Assembly (NCBI GenBank): GCA_020054095.1
Contig: JAGVMA010000003.1
Span: 1-35,731, forward strand
DNA length: 35,731 nt
Source: Bacteroidia bacterium
GTDB taxonomy: Bacteria; Bacteroidota; Bacteroidia; JADZBD01
Direction: 5' to 3'
Below, piece by piece: positions 8,777 to 29,894 of the stretch. Made by a program: the position numbers and the translations under genes. Position 1 is the first letter of the stretch. Each line of letters begins with the position of its first letter. The notes beneath the pieces are model-generated. The model worked only from the letters and a program-made list of their open reading frames with translations. It was not told the DNA's origin and ran no database searches.

Positions 8777-10843
8777 ATGAAAAAAATTTTACTCTCTGTT
8801 TTATTTTCTATTGTTGCACTAATTGCCGGAGCGCAGTGTACAACCACTAATGCTACAAGTTGCCAGTGCCAAGATAATCAGCAATCAAACTGCGATTTAT
8901 TACCGAATATTACTGTATCGTGGTATGGTATTTTAAACTATTTGGGCGGGCCAAATGAATACGAACAGGTTTGTAACCCACCATGCAATGGCAACGATGG
9001 TCGCTTGCGCATAACTGCATCTACTCCAAATATTGGCCATGGTCCGTTAACAGTTAGCGCAAGCACATTTTACGTGTGTGGAACCGATACAACAAATTTT
9101 AATCCGGGTCCTTGTCCTGATGGTTCATATCCTCGCCAATTAATTGAGCAACGCATCTATCATAAAAATGGCAGCGCCATGAGTTCTTATACTCGCTGGG
9201 CAGGTAGCATGACTTATCATCCCTCACATAGCCACAGTCACGTTGACGATTGGGGTGTTTTCACATTGCGTTACCAAACATCTGATCCCGATCCGCGCAA
9301 CTGGCCAATAGCAGCTACTGGTGCTAAACTAGGTTTTTGCTTAATGGATTATTACCAATGCGGTAATTCTAATGCTTTAAATCAGTGTAAAGATGTGAAC
9401 ACCACTTATAATTTCGGGAATACAATGATTAATAACAGCTTTCCAAATTTTGGATTAGGTGGTGGTAATTATAATTGTAACCCTTCTACACAGGGTATTT
9501 CATCAGGTTATACAGATGTGTATGACGAAACTTTGGATATGATGTGGATTAATTTACCTGCTGATTTGTGCAACGGCCAATACTGGATAGTGTGCGATGT
9601 TGATCCTAACAATAATTTCTTGGAAGAAGACGAAACTGATAATTATACTGCTGTGCCTTATACGCTAACGCAACAAAATCCTCCAAACACTAACCCCGCT
9701 TCATACATCACGCTAAACAAGCCATCGCCAAAAATATGTGTGGGCGAAAGCATTACGCTCAAAGGTAACGGTGCGATGTCGTATTTATGGAGCACGGGAG
9801 ATACTACGCAATCAATAACAGTAAACACTCCGGGGACTTATAGTGTAACCACGGTTACACATTGCGGAACTTCTACTGCAACTATGACCATTGCTCAATA
9901 CACAGCTACTCCTGCACCTGTTGCAACTGGCGATACAGTTTGTGTGGGTGGTTCGGCAACTTTAACTGCTACAGGCACAGGAACTTTAATTTGGGAAGAT
10001 GCTAACGGGAATTCATTAGATACGGGAAACACTTATATTACTTCTAACTTAAATATTACAGATACTTTTTATGTGCGCAACGAAGCTTATTTTATTGATA
10101 CGGCAAGTGTAGGCCCTGTAAACAATAAATATGGCGTGGGCGCAAATTCTACAAGTGCTAACCACCTTGCGTTTACAACCGAACAACCAATAAAAATAAT
10201 AAGTGTAAAGGTTTTGGCCGCTGCAAGCGGAACAAAAACTATTGAATTGCGCGATAGCTCTAATACGTTAATACAAACCATGACTGCTAACGTGGTAAGC
10301 GGATGGAACACTGTTACACTTAACTGGAATGTACCTGCTGGCATGTATTATCGCTTGGGCGGAACAAATGGCGGTGTGAATCTTTACAGAAATAACACTA
10401 ATGCTACTAATTTCCCTTACACCATTCCTGGCGTTATGAGCATTACTGGTTCTTCGGCCGGTGATGCGTATTATTATTATTTCTATGACTGGAAGGTGGA
10501 AGTACAAAACCGCGCCTGCTCAAGTGCGCCTGTTATGGCGATTGCAACTGTAGAAATTTGCACATCTGCTCCACAAGGGAAAGACCTTAGTAATTCTATT
10601 TCAGTTTATCCCAATCCATCAAATGGTTTATTTAGTTTAAATATGGCATTGCCCGGAATGGCTAATGCAGTTATTAATGTGGTTGATATGGTGGGCAAAA
10701 CAGTTTATACTCAAAAAGTAATTAGTGCAAATGGCAACTACCAGCAAACAATTGATTTAAGCGGCCTTGCAAAAGGATCGTATATCTTAAATGTAAATGT
10801 TGATGGACACAAGCCTGCTTACAAACGCATTACTATTCAGTAG
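8777..10843 (+). CDS. Secreted lysyl oxidase-like protein with T9SS sorting domain
   Basis: This 688-residue exported protein has a signal peptide (residues 1-19, cut after AGA) and a lysyl oxidase domain (about 40-298). The copper motif is intact as YHPSHSHSHVDDW, with His148, His151, His153 and His155, matching WHSCHQHYH of animal LOX. Both precursors of the lysine tyrosylquinone cofactor are present: Lys184 in GAKLGFCLMD (LOX KASFCLED) and Tyr249 in GYTDVYDETLDMMW (LOX GCYDTYGADIDCQW). The domain ends with the conserved GQYWIVCDVDPNNNFLEEDETDNY. Ig-like segments follow (about 310-376, with CVGESITLKGNGAMSYLWSTGD), then a further beta-rich region, and a T9SS type A tail from about 607 (ISVYPNPSNGLFSL). 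The predicted activity is oxidation of amine side chains, perhaps crosslinking surface or matrix proteins. The substrate is unknown. Confidence 0.85.
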   Translation: MKKILLSVLFSIVALIAGAQCTTTNATSCQCQDNQQSNCDLLPNITVSWYGILNYLGGPNEYEQVCNPPCNGNDGRLRITASTPNIGHGPLTVSASTFYVCGTDTTNFNPGPCPDGSYPRQLIEQRIYHKNGSAMSSYTRWAGSMTYHPSHSHSHVDDWGVFTLRYQTSDPDPRNWPIAATGAKLGFCLMDYYQCGNSNALNQCKDVNTTYNFGNTMINNSFPNFGLGGGNYNCNPSTQGISSGYTDVYDETLDMMWINLPADLCNGQYWIVCDVDPNNNFLEEDETDNYTAVPYTLTQQNPPNTNPASYITLNKPSPKICVGESITLKGNGAMSYLWSTGDTTQSITVNTPGTYSVTTVTHCGTSTATMTIAQYTATPAPVATGDTVCVGGSATLTATGTGTLIWEDANGNSLDTGNTYITSNLNITDTFYVRNEAYFIDTASVGPVNNKYGVGANSTSANHLAFTTEQPIKIISVKVLAAASGTKTIELRDSSNTLIQTMTANVVSGWNTVTLNWNVPAGMYYRLGGTNGGVNLYRNNTNATNFPYTIPGVMSITGSSAGDAYYYYFYDWKVEVQNRACSSAPVMAIATVEICTSAPQGKDLSNSISVYPNPSNGLFSLNMALPGMANAVINVVDMVGKTVYTQKVISANGNYQQTIDLSGLAKGSYILNVNVDGHKPAYKRITIQ

Positions 10844-19339: not shown

Positions 19340-20722
19340 ATGAAAAACAAAGAAATACCGCCACAATTATTGCTTAATCTTTCGTCACTTAACGAGTTTA
19401 ATGAATACGAATTTATTGCTGCTCACGACAAGGTGCAAACAATTACATCCATTAGATTAAACCTCAAAAAAGAAAAAAATGAATTGCCGAAAGAAGACAA
19501 TGTCCCCTGGTGCACAAGTGGCTATTATTTAAACAACCGACCAAATTTTACTGCCGACCCGCTATTTCACGCTGGCTGTTATTATGTACAAGAGGCATCG
19601 TCAATGTTTATAGAGCACATTTTAAAGTTGGCTGTTGATTTAAAACGCAATTTACGTGTACTCGATTTGTGCGCAGCACCCGGTGGTAAAACCACATTGA
19701 TATCTTCTGTAATTTCTGAAAATAGTTTTTTGATTGCAAACGAAGTGATAAAAAGTAGAGTGCATATTTTAGAAGAAAATATTACAAAATGGGGCAGTGA
19801 AAATGTAATTATCACTAATAACGATCCTAAAGATTTTTCAGGCATGGAAAATTATTTTGATGTTATACTTGTAGATGCCCCTTGTTCGGGCTCTGGTTTA
19901 TTCAGAAAAAATAATGGTGCAATAGATGAGTGGAGCGAAGAAAATGTATTACACTGTTCGCAGCGCCAGCAGCGTATATTGGCCGATATTATTCCTGCAC
20001 TAAAAGAAAACGGGGTATTAATTTATTCTACTTGCTCCTATTCGCCAGAAGAAAATGAAAAAGTTTGCGATTACATCGCAGATAATTTCGGATTAGAATC
20101 GCAAAAAATTACAATTAACGAAAAATGGGGAGTTGTTGAAACAGTTTCGGAAAATAAAAAATGTTTTGGCTATCGTTTTTATCCCGACAAAATAAAAGGA
20201 GAAGGGTTTTTTGCTGCTGCATTTGTTAATAAAAATAGTATTGCAGAGCAAAATGAAAGTAGCAGAAAAAAAGTTAGTTTGAAACATTTAACAGCAGCAG
20301 AAATAAAAATTATTTCGGATTGGGTAAAAAATACAGAACAGTACAGTTATTTTAAAAAAGAAAATTCAATTATAGTGTTACCAACTGTTGTAAAAGAAAA
20401 TCTTGACTCATTATCTCACCTGTACATAAGAAAGGCTGGCGTAGCAATTGGCGAAATAATGAATGGAGGTTTAATCCCATCACACGAATTGGCGATGAGC
20501 AAATTAATTGCAGACAAGATTACGAGGATAGAGGTGGAAAAAGATTTAGCAATAAAATATTTGAAGCGCGACACAATTTCGCTAAGCGAAGCCCCCAAAG
20601 GATGGGTGCTGCTAACCTATCTTGATATGCCACTGGGCTGGGCAAAAAATTTGGGAAATCGGATTAACAATTATTATCCTAAAAACTGGCGAATCATGAA
20701 ACCCGACAATAATGTTTATTAA
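19340..20722 (+). CDS. RsmF/RsmB-type RNA (cytosine-C5) methyltransferase
   Basis: This 460-residue SAM-dependent enzyme methylates C5 of a cytosine in rRNA or tRNA. The SAM motif is LDLCAAPGGKTTL (about 108-120). The two family Cys residues are Cys182 in VDAPCSGSGLFRK and the nucleophile Cys232 in YSTCSYSPEENE. The C-terminus (SEAPKGWVLLTYLDMPLGWAKNLGNRINNYYPKNWRI) resembles the PUA-like RNA-binding end of RsmF, which favours 16S rRNA as substrate. The start at ATG 19340 is 14 bases from a -7 box, giving a very short leader. The 3' end overlaps the GH92 gene on the other strand by 4 bases. Confidence 0.92.
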   Translation: MKNKEIPPQLLLNLSSLNEFNEYEFIAAHDKVQTITSIRLNLKKEKNELPKEDNVPWCTSGYYLNNRPNFTADPLFHAGCYYVQEASSMFIEHILKLAVDLKRNLRVLDLCAAPGGKTTLISSVISENSFLIANEVIKSRVHILEENITKWGSENVIITNNDPKDFSGMENYFDVILVDAPCSGSGLFRKNNGAIDEWSEENVLHCSQRQQRILADIIPALKENGVLIYSTCSYSPEENEKVCDYIADNFGLESQKITINEKWGVVETVSENKKCFGYRFYPDKIKGEGFFAAAFVNKNSIAEQNESSRKKVSLKHLTAAEIKIISDWVKNTEQYSYFKKENSIIVLPTVVKENLDSLSHLYIRKAGVAIGEIMNGGLIPSHELAMSKLIADKITRIEVEKDLAIKYLKRDTISLSEAPKGWVLLTYLDMPLGWAKNLGNRINNYYPKNWRIMKPDNNVY

Positions 20723-23601
20723 TTTATTTTTATTTCATCAATAAAAATAAAAGCATCGCCACCGGCACCCTGATGCCATGCAGGTAATTTGCCATAATTG
20801 TAAGCAACTACTTTTACATGTTTTGCTTTTAGCGATTCCGAAAGGGTAAATATCAAATCAGCGGTTTGTACTTTTTCGTCTTTATCTTGCACAGTATTTA
20901 AAATTGTGCCGGCAAGTGTAAAATCAATTCCATTTTGTGAAATAAAATAATCCACTTTTGTGGGCATCATAATCCATGAGCGTTGGTCTTGCAAAAAACC
21001 CGCAGCTATTTTTTTAATATTATTTTCTCCCTTTAAATCAATCACACATTCAAAATTTTGACCTTGATATCCTTGCCAGCGACCCTTTCTCCAGTTTTCA
21101 TCTCCGCGCAATCCATCTATAATTCCTTCATTGCCACCGGCTGTGTATTGTTTATTATAGGCAGCATATAATTTCAAAGTCCAATTATTCGGTCGTTTGT
21201 AATAGTATGCGTGCGATGGTTTACTGTTTTTATCTCCGGAAACCGAGACGGCAATTATTTCTGCAGTTTTGTTAATGAAAAATGGTTTTGTGTATTTTGT
21301 TACCTCTGATGTTTCTTCGCCCTGGCCAACAACTATTGAATACATAATCTCTTCTGTTGTATTTGCCGAAGAAATAGAAACCAAAATAGAATCGTTAAAA
21401 ACTTGCGATGTGGCTGTAATAATTGGCGAACTGACGTATGTGTGCTTTTTATGCTCCAAAATTGTTGGGGAAGAGCTTTTAATATTTAGCAGCTCGTTAT
21501 GCGATATGAAATTTTTACTTTTTAATGTGGTAGTAATTATCTCACCAGTAAATAATTTTTTTTCGTTTACTGTTATTGTATATTTAGGAAGAAGCGGTTC
21601 AGTGATGGTATATAAATTATTGCCGGGGCAAACTTGGTAAAAACCCAAAGCGCTCATCACACACCAAGCGCTCATTTGGCCGCAATCTTCGTTTCCAATT
21701 AATCCATCGGGTGTTGGTTTGTAAAAATTTGCAAGAATCTGTTTTACTCGCTGCTCCGTTTTTTCGGGCTTGCTAATATAATTGTAAAGATATGCCATGT
21801 GATGGCTCGGCTCGTTTCCGTGAGCGTACTGACCTATTAAACCCGTTATGTCTGCCTGTTCACGACCTGTTGTTTTACTGTCGGTAGTAAAAAGTTGATC
21901 TAATTTTTTTTCGAATTTTTCATTCCCTCCCATTGCATTTATCAAACCATAAATATCTTGCGGAACAAAAAAGCTATACTGCCAACTATTTCCCTCTGTA
22001 AAATTATTATCAACGCGCTTGGCATCAAATTCTTTTTGCCAACCACCATTACTGCGCGGCTGCATAAAACCGGTTTGCGGATTAAAAATATTTTTCCATG
22101 ACTGCGAACGAATAGTGTATTGATTACACACCGAATCGTTACCAATTGCTTTTGCAAATTGGGCTATGCACCAATCGTTATATGCATATTCCAATGTTTT
22201 GGAAACGCTCTCCGGCTCATCCTCAACTTCTAAAAATCCTTTTTCTTTATAGGCACCTAATCCGCGATAGTTTTTCAAATTACTCATTGCTATCATTGCT
22301 TCGAGTGCAAGCTTGGTGTCGAAATTTTTTATCCCTTTCATATACGCATCTGTAATTACGCTAACGGCATGGTAGCCAATCATGCAATCGGTTTCGTTTG
22401 CCGATAGTTCCCAAACGGGCAGCCGACCGGTTTGCTTGTACATTTCTAAAAAGGTTTTTATAAAATCGAGTGTGCGTTGCTCATCAATAATTGTGAGTAG
22501 CGGATGTAGCGCCCTAAAAGTATCCCACAGGGAGAACACGCTGTAATAATTAAAATCTTTTGCAGTATAAATTTTATTGTCCATTCCACGGTAACGCCCA
22601 TCCACATCATTAGCAATGCTTGGATGTATCATGCAATGGTAAAGTGCAGTGTAAAAATTAGTGAGTTTATTTTTGTCGTTGTCTGTTATTGAAATTTTAG
22701 AAAGCTCTTTAGCCCAAAGCAGCTCAGCGTCTTTTTTTACTTTCTCGAAATCCCAATGAGGTAATTCTGTTTCCATATTTTTTTTTGCACCATCATAATC
22801 AACTGATGAAATTGCAACTTTTAAAAAAATACTTTCGTTTTGCTCTACACTAAATCCAAAGGCAGCTTTCACGCCTTGACCATTTATTTCAACCACAATT
22901 TTGTCTTTACTTTCAATAAGATTATCTATTCCTTCTATTGTGTATTTCTTGTCAAATGATTTTGAGAACTGTATGGTTGCGTAAATTTGCTGCTCGGCAG
23001 CCCATGCCTTGCTTTTTCGGAAAACTTGTATTGTGGAATCATTAACTGGTTTTATTGTTGCGCCAATCAATTCGTCTCTGTGCGTTAAGTCAAGAATAAT
23101 ATTGGCTTCGCCAGATTTATTGAATGTGTATTTATGAAACCCCACACGGCTGGTTGCGGTAAGTTCCACATCTATATCATCATCAGCTAATTTTACAGCA
23201 TAAAAACCTGCGCTCGCTTTTTCATTCAGGTGTGAAAATTTTGATGAATAAACATTTTTATCGAACGAGTGTTTTCCCATCATGGGCATCAAAGCTATGT
23301 CGCCCCAATCGCTGCAACCCGTGCCACTCAAATGCGTGTGCGAAAATCCGTAAATAACCGAATCGGAATGATGATAGCCGCTGCATCCGTCCCAGCTTCC
23401 GTCAATGCGCGTATCTGGCGAAAGCTGCACCATCCCGAACGGAACGGTGGCTCCCGGAAAGGTATGCCCATGTCCGCCTGTTCCAATAAATGGGTTTACA
23501 TATTGCAGCAACGATGTATTGTCATCGGCAAATTTTGTCGGTTTAGTTTTTGAAAACGAACCGGCAACAAAAATGATGGATACGAAAAATAATTTTCTCA
23601 T
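20719..23601 (-). CDS. GH92 alpha-mannosidase with carbohydrate-binding C-terminus
   Basis: This exported exo-acting alpha-mannosidase belongs to glycoside hydrolase family 92, calcium-dependent inverting enzymes that trim mannose from N-glycans. It has 960 residues with a signal peptide. The N-terminal signature is VNPFIGTGGHGHTFPGATVPFGMVQLSPD. Catalytic-domain motifs are EGNSWQYSFFVP (Glu536, likely general acid), YAHGNEPSHHMAYLYNY (592-608) and GNEDCGQMSAW (Asp639). After about residue 750 come a chitobiase/hexosaminidase-type beta domain and an F5/8-type C domain (from about 815), which probably binds sugar. ATGA coupling links it to the glycosylasparaginase gene upstream. Linkage preference (alpha-1,2 or another) cannot be fixed from sequence alone. 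Confidence 0.93.
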   Translation of the reverse strand: MRKLFFVSIIFVAGSFSKTKPTKFADDNTSLLQYVNPFIGTGGHGHTFPGATVPFGMVQLSPDTRIDGSWDGCSGYHHSDSVIYGFSHTHLSGTGCSDWGDIALMPMMGKHSFDKNVYSSKFSHLNEKASAGFYAVKLADDDIDVELTATSRVGFHKYTFNKSGEANIILDLTHRDELIGATIKPVNDSTIQVFRKSKAWAAEQQIYATIQFSKSFDKKYTIEGIDNLIESKDKIVVEINGQGVKAAFGFSVEQNESIFLKVAISSVDYDGAKKNMETELPHWDFEKVKKDAELLWAKELSKISITDNDKNKLTNFYTALYHCMIHPSIANDVDGRYRGMDNKIYTAKDFNYYSVFSLWDTFRALHPLLTIIDEQRTLDFIKTFLEMYKQTGRLPVWELSANETDCMIGYHAVSVITDAYMKGIKNFDTKLALEAMIAMSNLKNYRGLGAYKEKGFLEVEDEPESVSKTLEYAYNDWCIAQFAKAIGNDSVCNQYTIRSQSWKNIFNPQTGFMQPRSNGGWQKEFDAKRVDNNFTEGNSWQYSFFVPQDIYGLINAMGGNEKFEKKLDQLFTTDSKTTGREQADITGLIGQYAHGNEPSHHMAYLYNYISKPEKTEQRVKQILANFYKPTPDGLIGNEDCGQMSAWCVMSALGFYQVCPGNNLYTITEPLLPKYTITVNEKKLFTGEIITTTLKSKNFISHNELLNIKSSSPTILEHKKHTYVSSPIITATSQVFNDSILVSISSANTTEEIMYSIVVGQGEETSEVTKYTKPFFINKTAEIIAVSVSGDKNSKPSHAYYYKRPNNWTLKLYAAYNKQYTAGGNEGIIDGLRGDENWRKGRWQGYQGQNFECVIDLKGENNIKKIAAGFLQDQRSWIMMPTKVDYFISQNGIDFTLAGTILNTVQDKDEKVQTADLIFTLSESLKAKHVKVVAYNYGKLPAWHQGAGGDAFIFIDEIKIN

Positions 23602-24587
23602 TTAAAATAATAATCTGCATCAATTAGTTTATTGCCACTATCGTCATACACTGCATAGTTAAATCCTTTTTGCAAAGCAAATGCGCCTACTTCGCCATTT
23701 TTATTAAGCGCTAAAAATCCAACTTGAATTTCTTTTAAATTTTTTGAGCTCTTTTTTACAATGCGTTCTACGGCTGCTTTGCATGCTTCCATTGGCGATT
23801 TCCCGTTACGCATCAGCTCAACAATAGTGTGTGCACCACACATACGTATAACTTCTTCGCCAACACCTGTTGCGGTAGCACAACCAATTTCGTTATCTAC
23901 AAAAAGACTTGCTCCAATAATTGGCGAATCGCCAACGCGGCCATGTAACTTATAGGCTAACCCGCTGGTGGTACATGAGCCGGAACAGTTTCCTGTTGCG
24001 TCAATTGCAATCATTCCTATCGTATCGTGATTTTCAATATTTGCTTTTGGCTTGTATTCCGATTTTTTTAACCACTCGTTATATTGTTTCTCCGCTTCGG
24101 GCGAAAGTTTTTTAGGTTCTAATTTGAATCCATTTTCCAATGCAAATTTTTGTGCGCCATTCCCGGCCAACATAATGTGCGGAGTTTTTTCCATCACCAA
24201 TCTCGCAACTGATACCGGATGTTTTATACGCTGCAAAAAAGCCACCGAGCCGCAATTGGCATTTTCATCCATGATGCAGGCATCTAATGTAACATGCCCT
24301 TCTCTGTCGGGTAATCCGCCAAGCCCCACCGAAAGGTTTGAAAAATCTGCCTCGGTTACATTCACGCCTTTTTCTACTGCATCTAATGCTTTGCCTCCGG
24401 CCGAAAGTATTTTCCACGCTCCTTCGTTTGCTGCCAAGCCGTGTTTCCAGGTTGATACAACTATTGGGTTTTTTGCAGGCATTTTAGTTGTGTATTTGTT
24501 TTCGGATTTTACATTTTGTGTGGCTCCCACCACTACGGCTGCCGATGCAAGTGCCGATGTTTTTAAAAAAATTCTGCGTGTTGTCAT
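23598..24587 (-). CDS. Glycosylasparaginase (N4-(beta-N-acetylglucosaminyl)-L-asparaginase)
   Basis: This Ntn-hydrolase cleaves the bond between asparagine and the first GlcNAc of N-linked glycans. It matures by self-cleavage before a threonine, here Thr189 in ENHDTIGMIAID. Other conserved parts are WKHGLAANEGAW, DREGHVTLDACIMDE, SGSCTTSGLAYKLHGRVGDSPIIGA and GCATATGVGEEVIR. The N-terminus MTTRRIFLKTSALASAA is a twin-arginine signal, so the enzyme is folded before export. 329 residues is the usual length. It overlaps its neighbours by 4 bases on each side (ATGA), placing it between the kinase and the mannosidase in one operon. Confidence 0.94.
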   Translation of the reverse strand: MTTRRIFLKTSALASAAVVVGATQNVKSENKYTTKMPAKNPIVVSTWKHGLAANEGAWKILSAGGKALDAVEKGVNVTEADFSNLSVGLGGLPDREGHVTLDACIMDENANCGSVAFLQRIKHPVSVARLVMEKTPHIMLAGNGAQKFALENGFKLEPKKLSPEAEKQYNEWLKKSEYKPKANIENHDTIGMIAIDATGNCSGSCTTSGLAYKLHGRVGDSPIIGASLFVDNEIGCATATGVGEEVIRMCGAHTIVELMRNGKSPMEACKAAVERIVKKSSKNLKEIQVGFLALNKNGEVGAFALQKGFNYAVYDDSGNKLIDADYYFK

Positions 24588-25519
24588 TGTTTTGCATTTT
24601 TTTGTTTGTTAAAAATGAGTGATGCCGCACCAAGTATTGCTGCATCATTTTCGTTTAACGATGATAGTGTAATATTTACTTTTCCGCGGTAGACAGGATA
24701 AAGATTTTTTTCAAAACTTTTGATGGTTGGTTTCAGCAATAAATCGCCTGCTTGGGCTAGCCCGCCAAATAAAAAAATAGTTTTCGGGCTGGTGTATGCA
24801 ACACTGTTCGCTAATACAAGGCCCAACAAGTCTGCAGTATAGTGAAACGAGTGTATTGCTTCTTTTTCGCCTTCGGTTGCTCGCTGAAAAATATATTTTG
24901 CAGTTATTGAATTTTCGGTTGCCGATATTTTTTTCATTTGCAAATACGTGGTTACAATTCCGGTGGCAGAGCAATAAGTTTCTAAGCAGCCCCGATTACC
25001 ACAGCCGCATAATCGTCCGTTACGCTCAACAATGACATGACCTATTTCTCCTGCATTACCATCGTTACCATAAATTAATTCGCCATTAACCACAATGCCG
25101 CTACCTAAACCCGTACCTAATGTGATGAACAAAAAATCTTTTATTCCCTTTGCGCCACCAAATAGCATTTCGCCCAACGCTGCTGCATTTGCATCGTTAG
25201 TAAGTGCCACAGTGCAATTTAATTTTTGTGAAAATAAATCGGCTAAGGGCACTATCCCTTTCCAAGGCATATTAGGCGCATACTCAATAGCGCCTGAAAA
25301 ATAATTTCCGCTTGGAGCGCCAATGCCAACTCCATCAATCTGAAACGAACTACCACATAGCTTTTTAATTATAGCATAAACCTGGTTTACAAAATGAACG
25401 GGGTCGGTGTGCTGTTGCGTGCTAATTACATCACGGGTAATAATAGTTCCATCGGCATTTACCAATCCAATTACCGTGTTGGTTCCGCCAATATCAACTC
25501 CCGCTATTATTTTTTGCAT
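24584..25519 (-). CDS. ROK-family sugar kinase
   Basis: This 311-residue cytoplasmic kinase of the ROK family phosphorylates a hexose with ATP. The phosphate loop is GVDIGGTNT at the N-terminus. The catalytic Asp109 lies in LTNDANAAALGE, LGTGLGSGIVVNG follows, and the zinc site is CGCGNRGCLET (Cys171, Cys173, Cys178) with His161 upstream. There is no DNA-binding domain, so it is an enzyme and not a repressor. Glucose, mannose or GlcNAc are all possible; in this operon mannose or GlcNAc released from glycans is most likely. It overlaps the transporter gene by 26 bases and the asparaginase gene by 4. Confidence 0.9.
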   Translation of the reverse strand: MQKIIAGVDIGGTNTVIGLVNADGTIITRDVISTQQHTDPVHFVNQVYAIIKKLCGSSFQIDGVGIGAPSGNYFSGAIEYAPNMPWKGIVPLADLFSQKLNCTVALTNDANAAALGEMLFGGAKGIKDFLFITLGTGLGSGIVVNGELIYGNDGNAGEIGHVIVERNGRLCGCGNRGCLETYCSATGIVTTYLQMKKISATENSITAKYIFQRATEGEKEAIHSFHYTADLLGLVLANSVAYTSPKTIFLFGGLAQAGDLLLKPTIKSFEKNLYPVYRGKVNITLSSLNENDAAILGAASLIFNKQKNAKQ

Positions 25520-26951
25520 CGTAATCTATGCCTTGTTGTTTTAAAATTTGTTTAACGCGCACGCCATAAAAAACTAAATATGCAAAACACGCAACGCCCA
25601 CCACATAACTAAACTGAATTCCGAGTAAATCGTTTTTTGACAAGTATCCTTGTAGCCAGCTTATAAGGCCGCCACCCATTATCATCATTATTAAAAAACT
25701 TGCGCCTTCGTTTGTTTTTTTTCCAAGCCCTGCAATGGCAAGTGTAAAAATACAAGGCCAAAGTGTTGAACAAAATAACCCCACACTAATAAATGCATAT
25801 ACGCTTAACATTCCATCGGCAAGCATACCTATTATTAGTGAGCTAATGCCGCATACTGAAAATATTACTAATTGCCTTGCCGGATTTCCTTTACTTAAAA
25901 TATCGGCAATTATAACGGCTACAATTATTAATGCATAAATATAAAATGGGGTTAAATCGTGGTTAGCTATTTTATTTACCAATAAAAAAACTCCGAATGC
26001 CACATAAGGCATAGTAAACGACAAAATATTTTTTATTCCTTTGCCGATGTCTAACGCACCAACAGCACCTGCCCAGCGACCAATCATTAAACTTGCCCAA
26101 AACAAGGACACATAAGGTGCCACATCGGCAGTTGCAGTGCCCACATGTTGTTTCATAAACTCGGGCAAATTAGCAGCAGTTGCTACCTCCACACCTACGT
26201 AAACAAAAATAGCAATCATGCCGAGCCAAAGTTGTGGATAGGCGAAAACTGATTTGTTTGCATTTTCATTATTGGTTTCAGCATCGGTGCTGACGTTATT
26301 AATTTGATTGGGTACGGATGAAAATTTAAACAGAATGGCAACTAAAATAAATGCTGCTGCTAAAATGAGATAAGGTGTTTTTACGGCATCGAGCGATTCT
26401 AAGTTTTGCCCTTCGGCAATGGAGCCAAATATGGCAAAACTTACAAGTACCGGGCCGATAGTGGTTCCGATATTATTTATACCGCCCGCCAAACTTAATC
26501 GCTGTGCGCCTTTTTGCGGATTGCCCATTGTTATCGTGAGCGGATTGGCAGCGGTTTGTTGCAAGGAAAATCCGAGCCCGATAATAAAAAGTCCGGCTAT
26601 CATCAGTGCAAACGATTCGGTTTGGGCTGCAGGATAAAATAACAGGGCGCCCACTGCAGATATCATCAGCCCCAAGGCGATTCCGTTTTTATATCCTATT
26701 TGGTTTAAAATATCACCGCCTCTAATTTTTGAAAGTAAAAAATAAATTAACGAACCTACTGTGTAAGCAACATAAAAAGCTACATCAATAAACATGGTTT
26801 GCCATTGCTCCAAATTAAGTCGGTCTTTATAAACCGGAATTAATATGCCATTGCTGGCGGCAACAAATCCCCAAAAAAAGAAAACAGAAATTAATATTAA
26901 AAATCCGGAGTTGGATTTATTGTTGAGTGGCAAAGAATCAATTGTTTTCAT
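25494..26951 (-). CDS. Sugar:H+/Na+ MFS transporter (FucP/GluP-like)
   Basis: This 485-residue, twelve-helix major facilitator belongs to the FHS branch (FucP, GluP, NagP-like), which imports monosaccharides across the inner membrane. Features are FFFWGFVAASNGILIPVYKD in TM1, GLGFSLQQTAANPL in TM4, and RLSLAGGINNIGTTIGPVL in TM5. A polar, asparagine-rich loop near residues 215-232 separates the halves. It is the first gene of the glycan operon. A 22-base palindrome lies just upstream of its ATG. The likely cargo is mannose or GlcNAc, judged from the neighbours; sequence alone does not decide. Confidence 0.9.
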   Translation of the reverse strand: MKTIDSLPLNNKSNSGFLILISVFFFWGFVAASNGILIPVYKDRLNLEQWQTMFIDVAFYVAYTVGSLIYFLLSKIRGGDILNQIGYKNGIALGLMISAVGALLFYPAAQTESFALMIAGLFIIGLGFSLQQTAANPLTITMGNPQKGAQRLSLAGGINNIGTTIGPVLVSFAIFGSIAEGQNLESLDAVKTPYLILAAAFILVAILFKFSSVPNQINNVSTDAETNNENANKSVFAYPQLWLGMIAIFVYVGVEVATAANLPEFMKQHVGTATADVAPYVSLFWASLMIGRWAGAVGALDIGKGIKNILSFTMPYVAFGVFLLVNKIANHDLTPFYIYALIIVAVIIADILSKGNPARQLVIFSVCGISSLIIGMLADGMLSVYAFISVGLFCSTLWPCIFTLAIAGLGKKTNEGASFLIMMIMGGGLISWLQGYLSKNDLLGIQFSYVVGVACFAYLVFYGVRVKQILKQQGIDYDAKNNSGS

Positions 26952-27040: not shown

Positions 27041-27400
27041 TTAGTTATTGGGTGCGCCTGCGTTATACCAGCAGCGAAGTATTTCAAGCTCGGTAGTTGT
27101 AAGTGGGCCATTGGCGCTGTAGGTCGGAGGCATATTGCCTTGTACAAAAACTCTGTTATTAAACTGCCCGCCAGTAACTTTTGCATTTAGCCCTGCATAA
27201 GTTGTAAAATCGCCCGAACCAAAATTAGCAACATGGCAACTTGGAATGGCACACTTTGCATTTACCACTGCGGTTACTGAAGTGGTATTGGTAATTGTGT
27301 CGCAGCTAACGAGGGCTTTGGGCTTGATTGCCCCTTTATCAACTGTGCATGATATGGCAAAAACGAAAAAGATAAATATTGCTGTATAGGTTTTGTTCAT
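27041..27400 (-). CDS. Small c-type haem lipoprotein (CX4CH)
   Basis: This 119-residue lipoprotein has its lipobox Cys at residue 18 (FVFAISC). It carries a haem-attachment motif of the rarer CX4CH form, Cys50-AIPS-Cys55-His56. A possible distal haem ligand, Met90, lies in the segment FVQGNMPPTYS, followed by LTTTELEILRCWYNAGAPN; that layout (haem motif, 'MPP', then 'L...E...I..W...GAPN') is the fold seen in small extracytoplasmic cytochromes of this phylum. It is the last gene of a three-gene cluster in which every product has a haem motif, and it begins 16 bases after the preceding gene. The likely role is electron transfer at the membrane surface. Confidence 0.72.
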   Translation of the reverse strand: MNKTYTAIFIFFVFAISCTVDKGAIKPKALVSCDTITNTTSVTAVVNAKCAIPSCHVANFGSGDFTTYAGLNAKVTGGQFNNRVFVQGNMPPTYSANGPLTTTELEILRCWYNAGAPNN

Positions 27401-27416
27401 ATTAGAAAAACTTAGC

Positions 27417-28250
27417 TTACAATTTTACAATTTTTTTGGTATAAGCGCCTTCTGTTCCGCTGATATTTAACAGATACATTCCGCTCGAAAATTCTTGTGT
27501 ATCAATATTTATTATTGAATTGATAGACGAAACATAAACCACTTTGCCGCTAATATCGAAAAGAGTAATCGCTCCATCGGTAATCTGCTTTTGAATGTTT
27601 ACAGAAATTGACTCGTTGAACGGAACAGGGAAAACAGAAACAGTACCATCAGTAAAATAAGTATTTATGCCCGATAGCGGATCTTGCTGAACGGTGAGCG
27701 ATGAAAGTAAGCACTGGTCGCCCGATGAGTTAGCTTGGTTATTAGTAGCCATAAACGCACCATAAAAAGTAACAGCTCCGTTGTTAGGTGCTGGGGCTTG
27801 CCAATTAAATGTCCACGTTTTAGTTCCAGTTCCGCTTGTGCCGGCTGTTTTATGTTCTATGTATTTTGTTCCGCCAACCAATTGTGTTTCAGTTGAGTTA
27901 GTAACAATCAATGTTCCCTCTTGCTGTCCGGCTGTATTTTGCGGTGATATTTGAAAGCCAAATTTGTTGATGTTCGGAACAGCAATTGTAGCTGTTATGG
28001 TGTATATCGAGTCGGATAAATAACCTGTACCCGGAATATTGGATGTAATCATGCCGGGAAGTGTTTGTGGCGTTCCGGTATGGCAGCTTGTACAATTGGA
28101 GTTATCTCCGGGCGAGCCCGTTTTGCCCGCAGGCGGACCACTTGTATATGAGATGGCGTTAAAATTACAAACCGCCACGAGGAAAACAGAAACTGCAATT
28201 GATAAGGTCGCAGTATAAGCGAGTTTCTGTGCTGTCATATTTTTTTTCAA
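27417..28250 (-). CDS. Choice-of-anchor V (reelin-like) protein with haem motif and T9SS tail
   Basis: This 277-residue exported protein has a classical CX2CH haem motif (Cys53-TS-Cys56-His57) in the segment SPGDNSNCTSCHTGTPQ directly after the signal region. A beta-sandwich of the choice-of-anchor V/reelin type follows (PNINKFGFQISPQN, TKTWTFNWQAPAPNNGAVTFYGAFMATN). From about residue 205 it has a T9SS type A tail (VSVFPVPFNESISVNI to YTKKIVKL). Proteins of this type are known in Bacteroidota only by domain name. The position between the copper monooxygenase and the haem lipoprotein points to a shared redox process outside the cell. Confidence 0.8.
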   Translation of the reverse strand: MKKNMTAQKLAYTATLSIAVSVFLVAVCNFNAISYTSGPPAGKTGSPGDNSNCTSCHTGTPQTLPGMITSNIPGTGYLSDSIYTITATIAVPNINKFGFQISPQNTAGQQEGTLIVTNSTETQLVGGTKYIEHKTAGTSGTGTKTWTFNWQAPAPNNGAVTFYGAFMATNNQANSSGDQCLLSSLTVQQDPLSGINTYFTDGTVSVFPVPFNESISVNIQKQITDGAITLFDISGKVVYVSSINSIINIDTQEFSSGMYLLNISGTEGAYTKKIVKL

Positions 28251-28319
28251 GAAAATTTGTTATGTCAATTCTAATTCTATGTTAGGCGTATTTCCTAAAT
28301 TATTTTTAGCGCACTATTA

Positions 28320-29894
28320 CTAATCAGAAACAACCAACTTGCCCGTGTTAACTGTAGTGTTATTGTGTATAAACTTATATATATACACTCCGCTATTAAA
28401 ACGGGTGCAATCCAATACCGATTTTTCGGCATAAAGTTCGCCCCTGTAAACTGTTTTTCCCAGCAAATCGGTAATATCAATGTATGTATTTCCGTTGAAG
28501 TTATCAATTCCGCTAATTTCCACATTCACCTTATCTTTAGCAGGATTAGGATAGAGCTTAACAGCATAGCCATCGTCATACACAATATTGTTTTGTGATA
28601 ATAGTAAAGTGCTGTCAAGAATAATGTTTTCATCTCCGGGGAAATAAGCTAAAAAAGCAAAAAACACCATCATCATTTCTTCATCAGTTGCTTCACCAGG
28701 CAAAACCCAATTATTGGGATTTGGCGCATTGGGATTGTTAGTGGTGTTATCGTAAAGCGCTTCGGCATACAGCATGGAGTTAGCCGGCAGTTTTATTAAT
28801 TTTTGGAAAGAATAAAATCCCTGCCAACGAAAATCCCAATTTTCGATATTGATAAAAGGGATAGTTTGATTTTGTGGTGTAACCGCCCACGATTTAATTT
28901 TTGTTCCCACCAAATGCATGTGAGGAGCTACCCATAACAACGATAAATCAATAACTGGCGCCTGATATTGCTCGTAAAATGTGGCCGTACTGTTTGGGGG
29001 AATAACCAGTGGACCATTGGTGATAGAAGCAAAGTGTTCGAGTGGTGCTGCCAAATAAACCCTGCGAACAAAATTATTAGGGGTATAATATATTTTTACA
29101 AATGTTGTATCGGATAGACCATGTGCCCAACTTGGATAATGTATTTGCAAAATAAAATCGCCATTAGCCGCCTGCCTTATTCCCATCCCATTCGGCAGAA
29201 ACTGACTGACAGTTCCCGGAGTCCATGCGCCAAGAAGTTCAATATCATTCACGCCCACTCCACCAGAAGAGGTGTATCCGGGATCAGGATCGTTTTGGTC
29301 TAAAACAGCTGCCTGTCCTGTTGTATCGTAATACATTAACACGTGATGTACTATTTGATGATTTTTGGGAACAATATCAATTCCTTTAATAAACTTCGGA
29401 TTTATTAAACCGCCCGGAATCACAAAACATCGATACATGTCATCGCCATTTAGGCCATTGGTATCAACGGTGTAAGGTGGTATTTGTATAATTAAATCAG
29501 GTGTTCCGCTTAGTGTGCCCGATGTAGGGAAAACAGGTAGTGGGGCCTGCTGAGTAGTATCGCCCGATTGACCACCTTGGTTAATCCAATCTTGTATAGT
29601 TTGAATTTCTATAGAAGTTAACGTGCGGTGCGATTCGCCTTTCAACTGGGAATACGTTGTATCGGGGGGCCAAGGTGGCATTTTTCCAATCATAGTATAG
29701 CCGCCAATACTGTAACGATTATTATAGGCATCGGTGTAGGTTTCTAGCTTTAAATAGTTGGCGCCAACGCCATTGGTGTTATGGCAACTAAGGCATTTGT
29801 TGTAAAATATGGGAAGCACATCGTTAACCCATGTAGTTTGTGCGGTTAATGGCAAAGATGCCGTAATAGATAAAGCGAGTAAAAGTTTTTTCAT
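28320..29894 (-). CDS. PHM-like type II copper monooxygenase with haem domain and T9SS tail
   Basis: This 524-residue exported protein has a signal peptide (residues 1-19) and a cytochrome c-like domain (about 20-108) with CLSCH (Cys34, Cys37, His38) and a distal Met72 in KMPPWPPD. A copper type II ascorbate-dependent monooxygenase region follows (about 130-440). All expected copper ligands are visible: His183/His184 in HQIVHHVLMYYD and His252 in LQIHYP for the first site, and His325/His327 in APHMHLVG plus Met407 in TDEEMMMVFFAFLAYFP for the second. A T9SS tail begins at about 446 (KLYPNPAKDKVNVEI). Relatives such as PHM and dopamine beta-hydroxylase hydroxylate C-H bonds using two one-electron donations. 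The fused haem could be the donor here. The substrate is unknown. It has its own promoter and heads the cluster. Confidence 0.87.
   Translation of the reverse strand: MKKLLLALSITASLPLTAQTTWVNDVLPIFYNKCLSCHNTNGVGANYLKLETYTDAYNNRYSIGGYTMIGKMPPWPPDTTYSQLKGESHRTLTSIEIQTIQDWINQGGQSGDTTQQAPLPVFPTSGTLSGTPDLIIQIPPYTVDTNGLNGDDMYRCFVIPGGLINPKFIKGIDIVPKNHQIVHHVLMYYDTTGQAAVLDQNDPDPGYTSSGGVGVNDIELLGAWTPGTVSQFLPNGMGIRQAANGDFILQIHYPSWAHGLSDTTFVKIYYTPNNFVRRVYLAAPLEHFASITNGPLVIPPNSTATFYEQYQAPVIDLSLLWVAPHMHLVGTKIKSWAVTPQNQTIPFINIENWDFRWQGFYSFQKLIKLPANSMLYAEALYDNTTNNPNAPNPNNWVLPGEATDEEMMMVFFAFLAYFPGDENIILDSTLLLSQNNIVYDDGYAVKLYPNPAKDKVNVEISGIDNFNGNTYIDITDLLGKTVYRGELYAEKSVLDCTRFNSGVYIYKFIHNNTTVNTGKLVVSD

Follow-up and report, generated by a model that had tools for sequence, protein, structure and literature searches.

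The first gene of a three-gene locus in a Bacteroidota draft genome (gene 1) probably encodes a two-copper monooxygenase of the PHM/DBH class that is secreted and anchored at the cell surface; a fused monohaem cytochrome c would take the place of ascorbate as the donor of single electrons. What the data show are the sequence, ligand conservation, predicted fold, the domain fusion and genomic associations, whereas haem and copper loading, the direction of electron flow, catalysis and the substrate are inferred. In animals, enzymes of the class make noradrenaline and amidated hormones and are supplied by vitamin C. They require two electrons, which are delivered singly. How two separated coppers obtain these electrons is a long-debated step, and a widely distributed bacterial branch carrying its electron donor in cis would make it testable in one spectroscopically visible protein. 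The fusion would, in addition, give Bacteroidota another class of surface oxidation.

Organization of the locus

The analysed stretch of 35,731 nucleotides, termed the window, is contig C77 of a draft genome of 3.17 Mb (G000). All three open reading frames of the original prediction were present on the minus strand, and every motif listed for them was located (Table 1). Gene 2 encodes 277 amino acids if translation starts at a TTG codon and 273 if it starts at the ATG at position 28238. Because the three genes lie on one strand and are separated by gaps of only 69 and 16 bp, a single transcript is plausible. Promoter- and terminator-like sites around them occurred in numbers close to the shuffle expectation. 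T9SS tails had been predicted for two of the products and were recovered by Por_Secre_tail in gene 1 (E = 1.2e-11) as well as in gene 2 (E = 5e-11). The source genome encodes GldM twice, which is consistent with the tail marking the gene 1 product as T9SS cargo. Further downstream on the same strand, positions 20722-26951 of the window hold genes for a GH92 enzyme, an asparaginase-2 family protein, an ROK kinase and an MFS sugar transporter, an arrangement resembling an operon for N-glycan catabolism.

Table 1. Features of the three-gene locus (window positions) and of the phage-encoded fusion copies (contig positions)
Feature	Position	Strand	Description
Gene 1	28320-29894	-	524 aa; predicted signal peptide, monohaem cytochrome c domain, PHM/DBH-type dicopper monooxygenase core and T9SS type A sorting tail
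Cytochrome c domain of gene 1	29565-29831	-	~residues 22-110; invariant C34, C37, H38, M72; profile and fold matches
CLSCH haem attachment motif of gene 1	29781-29795	-	C34-H38; invariant in alignments
Met72 of gene 1	29679-29681	-	putative sixth haem ligand; MPPW motif (GKMPPW), invariant
PHM/DBH-like double jelly-roll core of gene 1	28641-29507	-	~residues 130-418; VIA Z 22.3 to DBH 4zel and 22.1 to PHM 6ala; Foldseek E 4e-13
H183-H184 of gene 1	29343-29348	-	predicted CuH ligands; align with HH pair of DBH and PHM
H252 of gene 1	29139-29141	-	predicted third CuH ligand; invariant; aligned to DBH/PHM by profile
H325-M326-H327 of gene 1	28914-28922	-	predicted CuM ligands H325 and H327; align with HxH of DBH and PHM
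M407 of gene 1	28674-28676	-	presumed CuM Met ligand; invariant EM; equivalence to CuM Met of PHM/DBH by fold order only
T9SS type A sorting domain of gene 1	28329-28556	-	residues 447-522; Por_Secre_tail E 1.2e-11; TIGR04183 over cut-off
Gene 2	27417-28250	-	choice-of-anchor V domain, residues 25-184; CTSCH; T9SS tail, residues 206-275
CTSCH of gene 2	28080-28094	-	C53-H57; read from sequence; top-scoring relatives have CXCH
Gene 3	27041-27400	-	119-aa lipoprotein; lipobox Cys18; C50AIPSC55H56; MPP at M90
Phage fusion copies	L107:2757-4025, L108:1339-2607, L109:74-1342, L110:2956-4227		marine IMG/VR contigs, beside T4-like terminase genes

Haem domain of gene 1

A c-type haem domain with CLSCH and Met72 had been proposed for gene 1. 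The motif was confirmed, and the four haem residues (C34, C37, H38 and M72) were invariant in the family alignments, including one of 30 sequences. Pfam gave a weak, sub-threshold cytochrome match, and Foldseek alone returned no significant match for the domain. Modelled by itself, the domain reached a pLDDT of 81. When this predicted model was compared with solved structures, only cytochromes appeared at Z >= 2, the best being PccH (Z 6.5), followed by hydrazine synthase alpha (4.1) and cd1 nitrite reductase (~2.5). The closest solved relatives by profile and fold are the monohaem cytochrome PccH (4rlr) and the haem domain of hydrazine synthase alpha (5c2v). Unlike gene 1, neither is fused to a copper core.

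Copper core of gene 1

The AlphaFold2 model of full-length gene 1 had a mean pLDDT of 74, with low confidence at residues 74-88 and 123-129. It superposed on dopamine beta-hydroxylase (DBH, 4zel) with Z 22.3 and an rmsd of 2.8 over 274 residues (VIA), and all matches other than DBH and PHM had Z values of about 10 or lower. The family profile, compared with the PDB, retrieved DBH (E = 8.5e-8) and PHM (E = 1e-4) with the HH, H and HxH ligands in register; these five copper ligands are therefore aligned by profile, and the Met by order only. Family models responded less clearly. In the Pfam/NCBIfam search Cu2_monoox_C (PF03712) barely passed its cut-off, with 24.6 bits against 23, and PF01082 scored 14.8 bits, below its cut-off of 30. 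The PHM-like domain of the original prediction, with all copper ligands visible, is borne out, as the six ligands are present and invariant and the predicted fold matches DBH/PHM (Z 22). PNGase F was considered as an identity for the core. It has a related fold, but it was rejected because its Z value was 8.7 as compared with 22 for DBH/PHM and because the dicopper ligands are conserved.

DBH itself carries a DOMON domain and uses ascorbate as reductant. Gene 1 resembles DBH in the double jelly-roll dicopper core, the ligand set and the presence of an extra N-terminal domain; it differs in that this domain is a predicted haem c cytochrome, in its bacterial origin and in its T9SS tail. With PHM (1phm, 1sdw and 6ala) it shares the core fold (Z 20-22) and the HH, H, HxH and M ligands. 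In contrast to PHM, it lacks the Arg for the substrate carboxylate, has a fused cytochrome and is not accompanied by an amidating lyase.

Conservation and distribution of the fusion

Relatives of gene 1 were found in 25 of 395 Bacteroidota genomes, a count that leaves out one tail-only match, and a search of genome contigs added four further loci. CXXCH, the axial Met and the six copper ligands were kept in all 31 Bacteroidota relatives. In the 30-sequence alignment, where identity to the window protein was 27-42%, neither the four haem residues nor the six copper ligands varied, and the ligand columns were also invariant across 32 aligned sequences of the family. Every full-length relative had the cytochrome domain followed by the PHM domain. 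Because the ligands are invariant in the relatives and the predicted fold matches DBH/PHM, we regard the haem-copper fusion as a genuine, widespread and conserved family and not as a product of chance. Plasmids yielded a single weak match to gene 1. Spread beyond Bacteroidota had been considered on account of one locus titled Thermoanaerobaculia (L033), but no further phylum could be established: the search of that phylum returned the same Bacteroidota loci, so this record is probably mistitled.

In the open literature searched, no paper described a fusion of cytochrome c with PHM, which is a weak indication that the family is undescribed. PHM is widespread in eukaryotes according to a structural survey (PMC8812541), and in the table of a cuproprotein survey PHM and DBM stand on the eukaryotic side, the column being read from plain text (PMC7435645).

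Genes 2 and 3

Gene 2 matched the choice-of-anchor V family with high significance (choice_anch_V, NF041895, E = 1.7e-28, 99.6 bits against a cut-off of 42). Both this domain and the CTSCH motif of the original prediction were confirmed. Haem in gene 2 is not to be assumed, since the top-scoring choice-of-anchor V proteins (L066-L075) have CXCH in place of CXXCH; haem binding as a trait of the family appears doubtful. Gene 3 gave no match in Pfam/NCBIfam. Its description as a CX4CH lipoprotein was upheld by the lipobox Cys18 and by C50AIPSC55H56. The gene 3 profile also retrieved the haem domain of gene 1 and PccH, and CX2CH and CX4CH interchange at one column among gene 3 relatives. By homology, gene 3 encodes a small lipoprotein of the cytochrome c type, related to the gene 1 haem domain. 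Relatives of gene 2 occurred in 105 of the 395 Bacteroidota genomes, and those of gene 3 in 27 by single sequence and in 147 by profile.

Genes 2 and 3 may derive from an outer-membrane redox neighbourhood, comprising a choice-of-anchor V protein, a haem lipoprotein, a DUF5777 barrel, YceI and cytochromes, and may merely abut gene 1; we hold the chances of this to be evenly balanced. In genome G041 (L129) the choice-of-anchor V gene adjoins genes for a haem lipoprotein, YceI and DUF5777. In G395 (L130) it lies within 6 kb of genes for a haem lipoprotein, DUF5777, a cytochrome c, a 4Fe-4S protein and a lysyl oxidase homologue. Gene 3-like lipoproteins adjoin DUF5777-like genes in the remaining loci that were inspected, several of which also have YceI; Pfam confirmation covers L129 and L130 only. 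Most choice-of-anchor V genes, however, have no adjacent gene 3 relative, and the window copy has neither DUF5777 nor YceI alongside.

Across loci L119-L130 a haem lipoprotein, a DUF5777-like barrel, YceI and other cytochromes form a recurrent module. The window also encodes a T9SS-tailed lysyl oxidase-domain protein at positions 8777-10843, whose homologue in G395 directly adjoins the choice-of-anchor V gene (L130).

Substrate of gene 1

Arg240 of PHM binds the substrate carboxylate. The corresponding position, two residues before the first CuM His, is occupied by Ala323 in gene 1, and no Arg was found there in the 30-sequence alignment or in the extended family alignment. Given this absence, gene 1 is unlikely to serve in peptide amidation, and its substrate is probably not a peptide with C-terminal glycine.

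From the neighbouring genes, a glycan or glycoconjugate is weakly favoured as substrate. Genes 1-3 are followed after 89 bp, in the same orientation, by the genes for the MFS sugar transporter, ROK kinase, asparaginase-2 family protein and GH92 enzyme. In another subclade, six genomes (L056, L058, L060, L061, L062 and L063) carry the fusion within an ROK-SusC-SusD-cytochrome/PHM-FG-GAP/UnbV cluster, which contains a redoxin in five of the six cases (not in L063) and usually a PAP2 protein. Both settings hint weakly at sugar uptake. A more specific version, namely that the fusion oxidises surface glycans or glycoconjugates before their uptake as an analogue of cytochrome-driven LPMOs, draws on the same two settings and seems doubtful to us: relatives from the subclade of the window protein adjoin unrelated or housekeeping genes, SusCD pairs import non-glycans too, and the likeness of the core to the PNGase F fold is only distant (Z 8.7).

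Electron supply and direction of electron flow

Because the fused haem is always present in the family, it may act as a built-in electron donor to CuH. If haem and copper are loaded as the ligands predict, an external reductant, either another c-type cytochrome or a small molecule, would reduce the haem of gene 1, which would hand single electrons to CuH (H183, H184 and H252). O2 would be activated at CuM (H325, H327 and M407), and an extracellular substrate would be hydroxylated. Gene 3 could supply electrons to gene 1, though not as a fixed partner.

The nearest tested precedent comes from a separate copper system. There, bacterial LPMOs are reduced and activated by CjX183, a cytochrome of the c type, with less H2O2 produced than with ascorbate (PMC8981238). 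CjX183 (from Cellvibrio Cbp2D) with AA10 LPMOs thus resembles gene 1 in that a small secreted c-type cytochrome reduces a copper monooxygenase (PMC8981238). The two differ in that the copper site and fold of LPMOs are unrelated to those of gene 1 and in that CjX183 and the LPMO reside on separate polypeptides.

The fused protein might instead run in reverse, with the haem taking electrons from a copper oxidase, or might be a copper-binding or copper-sensing module. Single haems may accept as well as donate electrons. We consider both variants improbable, as the six PHM ligands have stayed unchanged even among deeply diverged relatives. Moreover, PHM and DBH both activate O2 at such a dicopper site with incoming electrons. 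The original prediction of a haem-fed copper oxygenase stands in part: because the fusion in cis is real and conserved, copper chemistry supplied by the haem can soundly be inferred, whereas the extension of the chain to two further proteins found no support.

That extension held that the three genes form one dedicated, self-contained surface electron chain, with electrons passing by way of the CX4CH lipoprotein and the choice-of-anchor V protein to the fused enzyme. The common strand and short gaps, the T9SS tails on two products and the homology of gene 3 to the gene 1 haem domain would fit such a chain. The gene 1 and gene 2 families also share genomes above chance (choice-of-anchor V in 16 of the 25 genomes with gene 1 as compared with 89 of the 370 others; odds ratio 5.6, uncorrected for kinship). 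The neighbourhoods of the 32 other gene 1 loci, however, read up to ~9 kb in either direction as far as the contig extended, contained no relative of gene 2 (T9SS tail aside) or of gene 3 in any case. In genomes with both families, the matches listed sit on separate contigs or tens of kb apart, and G395, the only other genome of the same order examined, has choice-of-anchor V and gene 3 relatives and lacks gene 1. With CXCH frequent among gene 2 relatives as well, a dedicated chain is very unlikely, and as a conserved system it was rejected by co-occurrence across Bacteroidota genomes and loci, rare co-occurrence of the three genes being an outcome that the original prediction had itself named as refuting.

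Redoxin partner of the fusion family

A thioredoxin-fold protein adjoins the gene 1 family member in 13 of 33 loci, in several families. It has two invariant Cys residues, located in a CP motif and in a C-terminal GC, and its closest match in the PDB is 2cvb. The second fusion copy of the source genome (contig C26, L057) has a redoxin directly upstream, and at L106:1104-2990 redoxin, cytochrome c and PHM core form one protein of 629 amino acids. In the tree of the family, no adjacent redoxin was found in the T9SS-tailed subclade to which the window protein belongs. The redoxin thus appears to be a feature of the fusion family and not of the window locus. It may protect the fused enzyme against peroxide, supply it with copper or reduce it.

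Phage-encoded copies

Four marine contigs from IMG/VR encode tail-less copies of the fusion of 423-424 amino acids (Table 1). Every haem and copper ligand is kept, and identity to the L107 copy is 87-88%. No match was found among phage isolates in the collection searched. There is about an even chance that bacteria and at least one marine T4-like phage group rely on an as yet undescribed PHM/DBH branch that is independent of ascorbate by virtue of its built-in cytochrome c. If so, the phage copy between terminase genes would represent a haem-copper monooxygenase of viral origin that acts on the medium or on the envelope of the host. The phage fusion adjoins a T4-like large terminase gene, and tail sheath genes follow further on where the contig reaches. 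A small terminase gene lies on the other side of the fusion in L107, L108 and L110; L109 starts just before the fusion gene.
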